A DNA stretch of 64,000 nucleotides from Asaia astilbis JCM 15831 (GTDB lineage Bacteria > Pseudomonadota > Alphaproteobacteria > Acetobacterales > Acetobacteraceae). Of this stretch, positions 1 to 14,677 are shown in pieces (position 1 is the stretch's first letter; every line of letters begins with the position of its first letter). The notes under the pieces are model-generated. The model saw only the letters and a program-made list of their open reading frames with translations. It was not told the origin of the DNA and did not search any database. Made by a program: the position numbers and the translations under genes. Where the stretch lies: contig NZ_BAJT01000010.1 in NCBI RefSeq assembly GCF_000613845.1, forward strand, positions 1-64,000. The letters are read 5' to 3'.

Positions 1-206
1 GGCGAAGGCGTGTCCGCTTTATGCGGTGTCGCTGGAGGGCCCGTATCCTCGAACGCCATTTCGACCGCTGGAGGTTCGGGGGGCTCGGGAGGCTTGCTCA
101 TCGGCAGCCTGACGAGAAGAAAGCCGATATACAGCACATGGGCCGCAACCGACGCTCCCAGAGCATAGCGGAAGCGCCGGACATCGGACCGACGGGGACG
201 CAGCAA
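1..206 (-). CDS. tolA: TolA/TonB-like energy transducer, N-terminal fragment (partial)
   Basis: This is the N-terminus of a TolA/TonB-type periplasm-spanning protein that would couple the TolQR proton channel to the outer membrane Tol-Pal system. About 68 codons are visible before the window edge. A short basic cytoplasmic stretch (LRPRRSDVRR) is followed by a single membrane segment around residues 14-30 and then a Pro/Glu-rich periplasmic start (SKPPEPPEPP), which is the usual layout. I chose a TTG start at 206 because a GAGGAG ribosome binding site lies just upstream and no ATG is in range. It follows tolR by 17 bases. The C-terminal domain is outside the window, so TolA rather than TonB rests on gene order. 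Confidence 0.8.
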   Translation of the reverse strand, partial: MLRPRRSDVRRFRYALGASVAAHVLYIGFLLVRLPMSKPPEPPEPPAVEMAFEDTGPPATPHKADTPS

Positions 207-10513: not shown

Positions 10514-11748
10514 ATGGCAAATGGATTTCGCGTCGTCATCATCGGCGGCGGCGTCGCCGGGATGGAAACGGCGATGACGCTCGGCCGTGGGCGCCATCGT
10601 AACATCGAAACCACCCTGATCGATAAAGGTGCCGTGCATTACTGGAAGCCTATGCTGCATGAATTTGCGGCTGGGACGGGTGAAGAATCGCGCGATTGTA
10701 CTACCTTCGTTGAAGCCAGCCGGCGTTTCGGTTTTCGTTTCATCCAGAGCTCCCTGACCAGCGTCGATCGCGAGAAGCATGAGCTGCGCCTCGCGAATGA
10801 CGAGATCGTCCCCTATGATTTGCTGGTTGTGTCGCTTGGTTCGAGATCAAACGATTTCGGCATCTCAGGCGTGATGGCGAATTGCACTTTCATCGACTCG
10901 CTTCCCGATGCCAGCGCTTTCCATGAAAATTTTCGAAAGGCCTTCAAGGCAGCGGCGGCTGACAACCGCACACTGGAAGTGGGCGTGGTCGGCGGCGGGG
11001 CGACCGGCACGCAGCTTGTCGCAGAACTCTGCAGCGCAATCGATCAGACTCCCGGCTATGGCAAGGAAGCCCGGCGCAACATCCTGCGCCTCTCCCTGAT
11101 CGAGACCGGGCCGCGCATTCTTCCGGCTTTTCCCGAGCGCGTCTCGACCGATGCCCGCAAGCAACTCGAAGCGCTGGGCGTCAGTGTCCTGACAGAAGCC
11201 ATGGTCACTTCGGTCGACGAGAAGGTTTTCACCTCAGGGATGGGCGCCTTATCCCCGCAGAACTGCGAGTCTGGGCCGCAGGCGTACGCGCCAGTGCCGC
11301 CACCGAGCTTTTCGAAGGGCTTGAAATCGCTCGCGGTGGTCAGATCGTGGTCAATCACCACATGCAGTCGAGCGTCGACACTTCGATCTACGCGCTGGGC
11401 GATTGTGCTCGAATCAACGATGCTCCGCTCGCTGCAACGGCGCAGGTTGCCCGTCAGCAGGGTATTTATCTGGGCAAGGCTATTCCGGCGATCGCTCAGG
11501 GCCGCGAGCCCTCGACATTTGTTTACCGCGACCGTGGTGCCGTTGTGTCGCTGGGCGACTATAATGGCTGGGGTATGGTCGGTTCATCGACGAGCTTCGG
11601 TGGCGGCTTTCTGCGTGGACTGGCTCCAAGATGGCTGCATGATCTGATCTTCCGTCAGCATCAGATGGGCGTCATGGGTGTGGCTCGCGGAACGGCTGCT
11701 TTTCTGAAAGCCCATCTTTTCCCGACCCGCCCTCGTCTGGACAAATAA
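10514..11748 (+). CDS. ndh: Type II NADH dehydrogenase (NDH-2) (frame broken once)
   Basis: This is a non-proton-pumping NADH:quinone oxidoreductase at the inner face of the cytoplasmic membrane. It has an N-terminal FAD-binding Rossmann motif (VVIIGGGVAGMETAMTLG) and a second dinucleotide site for NADH (VGVVGGGATGTQLVAEL). The frame breaks near 11239 in a G-run (one G missing) and resumes as LRVWAAGVRAS, the FAD-contact motif IYALGDCARIND and a C-terminal amphipathic segment. Corrected length is about 411 residues. Acetic acid bacteria rely heavily on NDH-2. The start ATG has a GGGGAA site upstream. It ends 26 bases before the dioxygenase gene. Confidence 0.92.
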
Positions 11749-12588: not shown

Positions 12589-13140
12589 ATGCGTTGTCGT
12601 TTTGCGTCTGTCGGACTTGCCCTTCTCACGCTCACCGCATCTTCCGGCTTCGCCCGAACGCATCACTCTTCCGGCAAGGCGGCCTCTGCCTCGGCGGCAA
12701 AACCTGTCGTGATGAGCGCCCAACCCGGGACCATTCTCGATCAGGTCGCGCGTCAGGTGAATGAAACCGATCTGGCAGAAGCAGCCAAACATCATGACAC
12801 CCCTGTGGTGCTCGTTGCCTCGGCGCCGCTCTCGTCCAACCGCAACGATATGGCGCTTTTCGTACAGCTGCAATCGGCCCGGCTCTGCGGGTCGGCAGGC
12901 TGCTCGACTTCGGTCTATCTCCGACATAACGGTGGCTGGAAACTGGTCCTGGACTCAGTAAGCGGCGCCATTTCGGTTCTTCCGGCCCGCCATAATGGCA
13001 TGCACGATCTGCTGATCGACAAAAGCGATCGCTGGCGCTGGAATGGCTCGAGCTATCAGGACAGTGCTTTGACGCCCGCAGCGCCGGCTCCACAGAAGAA
13101 AACTCCGGACGAGCCGAAGAAAAACCTTCTGCACGGCTGA
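12589..13140 (+). CDS. Small secreted protein of unknown function
   Basis: I do not recognise this 183-residue protein. It has a clear signal peptide (MRCRFASVGLALLTLTASSGFA) and a His/Ser/Ala-rich linker. A compact domain of about 100 residues contains two cysteines close together (ARLCGSAGCSTSVYLR) and a beta-rich repeat-like part (HNGGWKLVLDSVSGAISVLPARHNGMHDLLIDKSDRWRWNG). The tail is Pro/Lys-rich. The form resembles periplasmic proteins measuring or binding a ligand, but no function can be assigned. It follows the dioxygenase by 55 bases and precedes a tRNA on the other strand. Confidence 0.75.
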   Translation: MRCRFASVGLALLTLTASSGFARTHHSSGKAASASAAKPVVMSAQPGTILDQVARQVNETDLAEAAKHHDTPVVLVASAPLSSNRNDMALFVQLQSARLCGSAGCSTSVYLRHNGGWKLVLDSVSGAISVLPARHNGMHDLLIDKSDRWRWNGSSYQDSALTPAAPAPQKKTPDEPKKNLLHG

Positions 13141-13162
13141 AATCTCATCGAATTGTCCGGAT

Positions 13163-13236
13163 TGGAGCGGGTGAAGGGAATCGAACCCTCGTATGCAGCT
13201 TGGGAAGCTGCCGTTCTACCATTGAACTACACCCGC
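13163..13236 (-). tRNA. tRNA-Gly (anticodon CCC)
   Basis: The minus strand folds as a full cloverleaf. The acceptor GCGGGTG pairs with CACCCGC, the D arm is GTTC/GAAC, and the anticodon stem GCAGC/GCTGC encloses loop TTCCCAA (anticodon CCC). The T arm GAGGG/CCCTT encloses TTCGATT. The 3' CCA is encoded (13163-13165). It reads GGG codons. It lies between the secreted-protein gene and the metZ leader. Confidence 0.96.
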
Positions 13237-13352
13237 GCGGCGCATTCTCTAGCTTAACTCTCGTTGCGATGCAATCAGCTTGCCTTGGTTGACGAGGCAG
13301 TCCGGCTTTGCGCATAATTCATTTCGATATCACGGACTAAATGTCGAAGATG

Positions 13353-13412
13353 TCCCTCGCGATTTGGAAGGCCGGATTGCGGCGAGGTTAAATAAAAGCG
13401 CTAAAGAGGCCC
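13353..13412 (+). promoter_or_regulatory. SAM-II type riboswitch upstream of metZ
   Basis: The aptamer layout matches SAM-II. P1 pairs CCTCGC (13355-13360) with GCGAGG (13382-13387). Loop 1 starts GATTTGG and contains GGCC, with TTGC just before the 3' strand of P1. An A-rich TTAAATAAAAG linker then leads to the conserved GCTAAAGAGGCC, whose GGCC can form the pseudoknot with loop 1. SAM-II switches bind S-adenosylmethionine and repress methionine genes in alphaproteobacteria, and here the next gene is metZ. Recognition is by pattern; a covariance search would confirm it. Confidence 0.85.
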
Positions 13413-13437
13413 GGGATCGCCCCGATCCCAGGTTTTC
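13413..13437 (+). terminator. Hairpin just after the SAM-II aptamer, possible expression platform
   Basis: A perfect hairpin pairs GGGATCG (13413-13419) with CGATCCC (13423-13429) over a three-base CCC loop, followed by AGG and a short T4 run. It begins directly after the pseudoknot strand, so it could be a SAM-controlled terminator. The T-run is short, so translational control of the metZ start at 13490 remains possible. Confidence 0.55.
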
Positions 13438-13489
13438 CACGGCCAGAATCGCACCCCTTCTCGACGGTGCATTTTGGAGTCCCTCTCCC

Positions 13490-14677
13490 ATGACAGAGCA
13501 TTCTTACGGTCCCTCAACACGCCTGCTTCATCAGGATGTGAGCCGTACCGAGCACGGCGAAACCAGCGAGGCGATCTTCCTGACCTCGGGTTTTGTCTAT
13601 GACAGCGCCGAGCAGGCAGCCGCCACCTTTACGGGTGACGTCACTCATTATCAGTATTCCCGTTTCGGCAACCCGACGACAGATGCCCTGCAGTCGCGTC
13701 TAGCTCAGCTCGAAGGCGCAGAAGCCTGCATCGTTACGGCGAGTGGAATGGGTGCCGTTTCTTCGGCTCTGCTTTCCCATCTTAAGCAGGGAGATCGAGT
13801 CGTCGCCTCGCGTGCGCTTTTCGGCTCGTGCTACTGGATCGTGACGACCCTTTTGCCGAAATACGGCATCGAGACCGTCCTCGTCGATGGCGATGACTGG
13901 GCCGGATGGGAGAAAGCACTCTCCGTCCCGACCGGAGCTGTACTGATCGAGAGCCCGTCAAATCCGATGCTCGACATCCTCGACATCGAACGCATCGCAA
14001 CCTTGGCCCATAAAGCGGGCGCCTTGCTGATGGTCGATAACGTGTTTGCCTCGCCGGTAGGGCAGCAGCCCCTCACTCTCGGGGCAGACGTCGTGATTTA
14101 TTCCTGCACAAAGCATATCGACGGGCAGGGTCGCGTACTCGGCGGCGCCGTTCTCGGACGGAAACAGTGGGTTGAAGAGGTTCTTCAGCCCTTCACCCGC
14201 AATACCGGTAATGCCTTGTCGCCCTTCAATGCCTGGGTTCTTCTCAAGGGTCTCGAAACCCTGCCGCTTCGCGTAAACGCCATGGCGGCCAATGCCAGTG
14301 CAGTGGCAAATTTTCTTGAAAAGGCTTCCGGGATCGCTCGCGTCAATTATCCGGGCTTGACCTCACATCCGCAGCGCGCACTCGTCGAAAAACAGATGAG
14401 CAATGGCGGATCTCTCGTGGCATTTGAGGTGGAAGGCGGCAAAGAGGCGGCCTTCCGCTTTCTGAACGCGTTCAAGCTGATCGCCATTTCGAATAATCTC
14501 GGCGACGCCCGCTCTCTCGCCACGCACCCTGCGACAACGACACATTCCAAGATCGATGTCGCCGAACGCGCTCACCTCGGCATCACAGATGGCGTCATCC
14601 GTCTTTCGGTCGGCCTCGAAGACAGTCAGGATCTGATCGCTGATTTGCAACAAGGTCTTACAGCGCTGAAAGCCTGA
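13490..14677 (+). CDS. metZ: MetZ, O-succinylhomoserine sulfhydrylase
   Basis: MetZ is a PLP enzyme of the Cys/Met metabolism family making homocysteine from O-succinylhomoserine and sulfide. The PLP lysine lies in YSCTKHIDGQGRVLGG, with upstream family motifs HYQYSRFGNPTTDALQSRLAQLEGAE and ASGMGAVSSALL and the C-terminal AISNNLGDARSLATHPATTTH. The chosen start MTEHSYGP at 13490 gives 395 residues, typical for MetZ. The frame is open back to 13280, but that would cover the riboswitch. GGAG lies ten bases upstream of the ATG. Expression is very likely repressed by SAM through the leader. Confidence 0.93.
   Translation: MTEHSYGPSTRLLHQDVSRTEHGETSEAIFLTSGFVYDSAEQAAATFTGDVTHYQYSRFGNPTTDALQSRLAQLEGAEACIVTASGMGAVSSALLSHLKQGDRVVASRALFGSCYWIVTTLLPKYGIETVLVDGDDWAGWEKALSVPTGAVLIESPSNPMLDILDIERIATLAHKAGALLMVDNVFASPVGQQPLTLGADVVIYSCTKHIDGQGRVLGGAVLGRKQWVEEVLQPFTRNTGNALSPFNAWVLLKGLETLPLRVNAMAANASAVANFLEKASGIARVNYPGLTSHPQRALVEKQMSNGGSLVAFEVEGGKEAAFRFLNAFKLIAISNNLGDARSLATHPATTTHSKIDVAERAHLGITDGVIRLSVGLEDSQDLIADLQQGLTALKA

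Follow-up and report, generated by a model that had tools for sequence, protein, structure and literature searches.

Does the S-adenosylmethionine (SAM) riboswitch of class SAM-II that stands before metZ in Asaia astilbis JCM 15831 (Acetobacteraceae) end transcription at the hairpin that follows its aptamer, or does it hide the ribosome binding site? The question arises in the window analyzed here, i.e., the whole 64,000-nucleotide stretch at positions 1 to 64,000 of the forward strand of contig NZ_BAJT01000010.1 (assembly GCF_000613845.1). We give about an even chance to the second answer, in which SAM-II switches metZ off through an expression platform that makes the ribosome binding site inaccessible and does not end transcription at the hairpin. 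The computed part of this answer consists of the aptamer, the hairpin that directly follows it and varies in sequence, a conserved block, the complementarity of this block or its hairpin arm to the Shine-Dalgarno sequence (SD) of the same species, and the near lack of U-rich terminators among the family leaders analyzed.

A SAM-II aptamer precedes metZ

To the Rfam model RF00521 (SAM_alpha), cmscan returned a full-model match on the forward strand at 13346-13425, scoring 65.4 bits where the gathering score is 36 (E 1.9e-12); it is the only match found in this draft genome of 3.14 Mb, whose assembly is 88.8% complete. The first-pass annotation, made from the sequence alone, had placed a SAM-II riboswitch at 13353-13437 before metZ, and the covariance-model search that it suggested thus agrees with it. 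The P1 stem CCTCGC/GCGAGG pairs 13355-13360 with 13382-13387, and its loop L1, within the element at 13355-13387, carries the 5' P2 strand GGCC (13370-13373). The complementary 3' P2 strand GGCC (13408-13411) belongs to a SD-like GAGGCC at 13406-13411, which allows the P2 pseudoknot, and the conserved SAM-II core, GATTTG and GCTAAAGAGG, is present.

The gene that follows on the forward strand at 13490-14677 encodes a 395-aa O-succinylhomoserine sulfhydrylase, MetZ (TIGR01325, 532.5 bits, cut-off 510.05), so the aptamer stands upstream of a methionine biosynthesis gene. Its nearest named relatives are from Asaia species (90-92%) and Swaminathania (86%). By these sequence criteria, we regard the SAM-II aptamer before metZ as real. 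SAM-II matches were found in all nine Asaia genomes and in 329 of 397 sampled Acetobacteraceae genomes, 266 of these over the cut-off. Some genera of the family sample (g45, g95 and g102) gave only weak matches (E about 1e-4 to 1e-5) and perhaps carry a divergent SAM-II variant. One genome (G213) has two SAM-II metZ leaders, L167 and L168, on one contig about 20 kb apart in opposite orientation; their printed stretches are identical.

The hairpin after the aptamer is a poor candidate for a terminator

The first-pass annotation had described a perfect 7-bp hairpin with a T4 run, the hairpin beginning at the base next to the aptamer, and had read the whole as a short aptamer-terminator switch. 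The hairpin, here called HP1, is there: GGGATCG/CGATCCC at 13413-13429 on the forward strand, one base past P2, forms a perfect, G+C-rich stem-loop of seven pairs. The T4 run is also present (13433-13436), but AGG separates it from the stem, so that it starts three bases late. In place of a U-rich tract directly 3' of the stem, AGGTTTTCC thus offers four T three bases off, and no match was obtained at five T. A tool scan of 13100-13600 detected no terminator-like site, and the leader as a whole (13340-13500) folds no better than shuffled sequences (z -0.86; 39/200 shuffles at least as good).

To extend the comparison to the family, leaders were drawn from SAM-II matches of about 62 bits or more together with the 80 nearest metZ relatives. 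The 199 loci obtained, minus eight without a recognized aptamer or start (L127, L140, L157, L161, L174, L182, L192 and L194), gave 191 leaders, which were reduced by similarity to 104, with manually assigned start codons in L050, L089, L090 and L132. The 30 leaders of other Alphaproteobacteria are loci from the best-scoring of 118 matching genomes. A terminator was scored as a stem of at least five pairs followed by a count of T within eight bases, against shuffled sequences.

With at least six T in eight, no hairpin was found among the 104 non-redundant Acetobacteraceae metZ leaders (shuffles 1.0), whereas 23 of the 30 other alphaproteobacterial SAM-II leaders had one (shuffles 1.1). The latter count includes L207 and L225; by eye, a terminator is also visible in L220 and L223, two of the seven leaders scored as negative. 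At five T or more the family is at chance (5/104 vs. 6.2 in shuffles), and only at four or more does it rise above it (27/104 vs. 16.0). The T4 run itself follows the hairpin in 9/9 Asaia genomes, yet no U-tract of at least six T is kept in the 104 family leaders. In the nine Asaia leaders, the best match with at least four T falls on HP1 in six, on the next hairpin in one and nowhere in two, and none reaches five T; the stems of L002 and L003 contain a mismatch and yield no match. The place of Asaia GGTTTTCC, which includes T4, is taken in sister genera by GGACTTCC or GGTTTCC. The proposed aptamer-terminator switch is therefore not borne out, its U-run being at chance or absent in the family.

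It is thus unlikely, in our judgment, that HP1 acts as an intrinsic terminator with a short U-run, favored by SAM binding, as proposed for Sinorhizobium meliloti metZ. The T4 shared by all Asaia genomes, the six Asaia leaders whose best match is HP1, the family excess at four T, the terminators of the other Alphaproteobacteria and the ATTTT that also follows the next Asaia hairpin, HP2, speak for intrinsic termination, as does a leader excess in Gluconobacter oxydans that the authors of a published study interpret as termination (PMC5756330). Set against these are the failure of any Asaia leader to reach five T, the empty scan of the window, the mismatched stems of L002 and L003, the GGACTTCC that sister genera carry in this position, and the family counts at five and six T. 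HP1 may still be a weak terminator in Asaia.

We read HP1 as a spacer hairpin, whose position is kept in the family as its sequence drifts. In the 74 leaders with a confident anchor for the block described below, the average fold of the HP1 segment is more stable than that of shuffles (mean z -1.94; 36/74 in the lowest 5%), and when HP1 and the block are folded as one segment, HP1 is the minimum-energy structure in 10 of the 14 Asaia-clade leaders.

A conserved block and a predicted Shine-Dalgarno hairpin

The block that follows HP1, GGTTTTCCACGGCC at 13431-13444 on the forward strand, holds T4 and a GGCC (13441-13444) complementary to P2. Its consensus is TTCCACGG[CT]C among acetous genera and ACGG[CT]CGG among distant ones; the positions used for anchoring are in part conserved by selection of the leaders, but neither the preceding TT nor the GG that follows in distant genera served as an anchor. 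In G. oxydans NBRC 14819 (L099), the block reads GGACTTCCACGGCC. Two of the 104 leaders (L186 and L188) lacked an anchor, which left 102. Some of these anchors, with at least two mismatches, are probably wrong, and the partner-swapping test given below was repeated, within clades, with 73 leaders selected to differ from CCACGGYC at no more than one position, whose conservation at those eight positions is partly built in. Without prior anchoring, an exact-pattern search for GCTAAAGAGG-15..45-CCACGGYC matched 95 of 397 family genomes, from 26 of 102 genera. Among 240 genomes sampled from the class, the pattern was present only in the window's own genome and in 0/237 genomes outside the family, many of which have other aptamer cores that an exact pattern would miss. 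A leader peptide through the block, with the frame HGFHG in some Acetobacter, was considered and dropped, as Acetobacter thailandicus (L072) has an in-frame stop and HP1 lengths vary (by eye).

The SD of metZ, GGAG at 13476-13479 on the forward strand, is partly enclosed in a second predicted hairpin, HP2 (13443-13477, forward strand). Its arms, CCAGAAT-C-GCACC and GGTGC-ATTTTGG, form 12 bp with one bulge; in Asaia the 5' arm begins at the CC of the block (13443-13444) and the hairpin covers the GG at 13476-13477. In distant genera, the block itself starts a short hairpin whose other arm holds the SD, and in 31 of 46 leaders the 5' arm pairs with three or more SD bases. One arm position of this hairpin is G-C in 19 and C-G in 21 of the 46. 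Among the 39 acetous-type leaders folded, which include two from Asaia, the mean probability of SD-block pairing exceeds 0.5 in 16; it is 0.39 in the window.

When blocks and SDs were permuted among species, the own block with the own SD scored -12.06 kcal/mol against -10.70 (sd 0.23) for permuted partners, and 0 of 10000 permutations were as good (n=102). Since the species are related, these partner changes are not independent events; tests within clades, which remove part of the relatedness, gave 7 permutations as good of 10000 in the distant group (n=32), 13 in the GGACTTCC group (n=17) and 243 in the GGTTTC group (n=19). Partner swapping and arm pairing thus both indicate that the SD is paired with an upstream strand and covaries with it, relatedness being only partly controlled. 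For the distant group, a MAFFT alignment yielded no structure in RNAalifold, probably as loop lengths differ, and per-sequence folding and partner swapping were used instead.

Predicted effect of SAM on the ribosome binding site

In the proposed mechanism, without SAM the P2 strand (GAGGCC) would be free and would pair with the block, brought adjacent by HP1, and this pairing would make the SD easier to open. With SAM, loop L1 would hold the P2 strand, the block and HP2 would cover the SD, and metZ would go untranslated. The lost translation could in turn permit Rho-dependent ending or message decay, leaving surplus leader RNA. For the SAM-II metZ leaders of Acetobacteraceae in general, we propose, at a probability somewhat short of even, that the terminator was replaced by a relay of L1, P2 strand, spacer hairpin HP1, anti-Shine-Dalgarno block and SD. 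The pseudoknot would then control a ribosome site some 60 to 160 bases away, and HP1 would hold the competing strands near each other even as its own sequence changes.

The bound state was modeled by imposing the aptamer, with P1 formed (five P1 pairs in most leaders) and L1, the linker and the P2 strand unavailable. The cost of opening the SD is 5.34 kcal/mol in the free state and 6.40 with the aptamer imposed (n=104; family mean +1.06). When the region from P2 to the SD is shuffled, the change is 0.01 (p = 6e-6 vs. the real leaders, n=104). The cost rises by more than 0.3 in 65 of the 104 leaders, and by 0.46 in the window. In the free state, the P2 strand is predicted to pair with the block at 0.54 in the acetous group, vs. 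0.19 in shuffles (n=41), and at 0.92 in the window, vs. 0.51.

Several results weigh against this reading. In 23 of the 104 leaders, the opening cost falls by more than 0.3, i.e., in the wrong direction. Bound minus free, it is positive in six of the nine Asaia leaders (at most +0.74) and negative in three (down to -2.65), with a mean of about -0.4; these figures rest on exact SD positions, a fixed-distance SD in seven extra leaders having made L003 positive instead of negative. A wider ribosome footprint gives four positive and five negative Asaia values (mean about -0.3), and an accessibility model without the aptamer yields -1.02 for the window, with a smaller effect across the family (mean +0.52). 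P2-block pairing in the distant group is no higher than in shuffles (0.27 vs. 0.25, n=32), and HP1 is not the minimum-energy fold of its segment in four of the 14 Asaia-clade leaders (L004, L006, L007 and L044). In the window, among hand-drawn alternatives, pairing of the P2 strand with the GGCC of the block scores -23.4 against -31.9 for an extension of HP1 with HP2 intact, and therefore no clean ON state is predicted. P2 is moreover nearly invariant, which puts P2-block pairing beyond a test by covariation. Thus, we infer the SAM-dependent step from the family average of the model; the window leader alone lends it no support.

RNA-seq of G. oxydans in complex medium also counts against hiding of the ribosome site: in the parts of that report concerned with the riboswitch, leader coverage is 20-fold over the gene, from which the authors propose termination, with reference to a computed terminator/antiterminator pair (PMC5756330). 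The same excess is open to a different explanation, in which Rho-dependent termination or RNA decay in the leader is the main control, the SD hairpin a contributor, and the SAM-bound leader stable and accumulating. On another riboswitch, the authors allow termination without a clear terminator, and stabilization of SAM-II riboswitch small RNAs (sRNAs) and mRNAs at high SAM is reported in the S. meliloti study (PMC9373788, as far as consulted); the fit between block and SD is left unexplained, and we consider this explanation rather improbable. In the favored reading, in which the platform hides the SD, the G. oxydans excess could reflect Rho-dependent ending once translation has ceased, or a stabilized leader. 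Most doubtful is translation at a distance, as reported for S. meliloti metA (PMC9373788), in which the GAGG of the aptamer recruits the ribosome for a start codon about 80 bases downstream and HP1 shortens the gap: the GAGG in the P2 strand, the hairpin between it and the ATG, and the poor own SD (scoring about -3 to -4) in several leaders from Acetobacter and Komagataeibacter are in its favor, but Asaia (GGAG) and Gluconobacter (GGAGGG) each carry a good separate SD, about 5-11 bases upstream of the ATG.

Promoter, start codon and neighboring genes

A promoter scan detected a promoter-like site, TTGACG-18-CATAAT, at 13289-13318 on the forward strand, and TTGACG with CATAAT or CATAGT was seen by eye in 9/9 Asaia genomes. 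For G. oxydans 621H, a mapped transcription start is given 17 bases before the Rfam match (PMC5756330, in part), an offset that would put the start in the window at about 13329, just past the -10. Because the conserved site and this offset both place the start upstream, the aptamer is most likely transcribed. A start downstream of 13412, which the first-pass annotation had named as fatal to its proposal, is thus not indicated. Upstream of the -35, GATGCAATC at 13268-13276 is identical by eye in 7/9 Asaia, with GATGCAATT in L008 and GTTGCAATG in L009; it is a possible regulator site. The promoter adjoins a tRNA gene on the reverse strand (13166-13236), read as tRNA-Gly from its anticodon loop CCC.

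The start of metZ is the ATG at 13490, with GGAG before it at 13476-13479. In the list of open reading frames (ORFs) of the window, the metZ frame stays open upstream as far as TTG 13280 and so crosses the aptamer. The first-pass annotation had warned that such a frame could place the start too early, and the hazard is real: the upstream open frame ranges from 33 to 237 bases across the nine Asaia genomes, i.e., is not conserved, whereas the ATG is preceded by TTTTGGAG in all nine. In L099, the end of the 5' untranslated region published for 621H matches by arithmetic, to within one base, an in-frame ATG that lies 15 bases upstream of the ATG behind GGAGGG; the annotated start may therefore swallow the SD.

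Further upstream in the window, a flavin-dependent dehydrogenase-like gene, as read from its translation, appears to be split over two frames (ORFs 10514-11647 and 11347-11748). The gene at 10514-11748 appears to be a pseudogene or an assembly error.

Comparison with known systems

A SAM-II aptamer before metZ is already known, also in Acetobacteraceae (PMC5756330), although a 2014 survey, in the part consulted, found SAM_alpha only in Rhizobiales and Rhodobacterales (PMC4239095). No description of a platform made of the block and SD hairpin was found in the open-licence PubMed Central papers searched. If our reading is correct, an aptamer and its gene were kept and the output swapped, a natural experiment in expression-platform evolution and a caution against taking every post-aptamer hairpin for a terminator.

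For Alpha- and Betaproteobacteria, SAM-II is described as the riboswitch class that is linked to terminators most frequently (PMC2258182, in part). The alphaproteobacterial SAM-II elements of Corbino 2005 (RF00521; PMC1273637), by the portions of that paper used here, share with the Asaia leader the aptamer, the methionine gene context and a promoter close before P1; in contrast to them, hairpins with at least six T were not found in the 104 Acetobacteraceae leaders. The SAM-II element of G. oxydans 621H upstream of GOX_RS09595 (PMC5756330) is in the same family and before the same gene, and the related strain L099 has the same block type. Its authors infer termination from coverage, the block and SD hairpin going unmentioned in the passages of that report considered here, and hiding of the SD offers a testable alternative reading of the leader accumulation. 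According to the relevant sections of PMC9373788, S. meliloti metZ, with the sRNA RZ, has the same aptamer class before the same gene and a lower mRNA level at high SAM, but a predicted typical Rho-independent terminator where the leaders studied here have a hairpin, a conserved block and a SD hairpin. In S. meliloti metA (PMC9373788), a hairpin likewise lies between the aptamer and the used start codon and translation is regulated; metA uses the SD of the aptamer itself, whereas in the leaders described here a second SD, close to the ATG, is covered by the block or by the arm starting within it.
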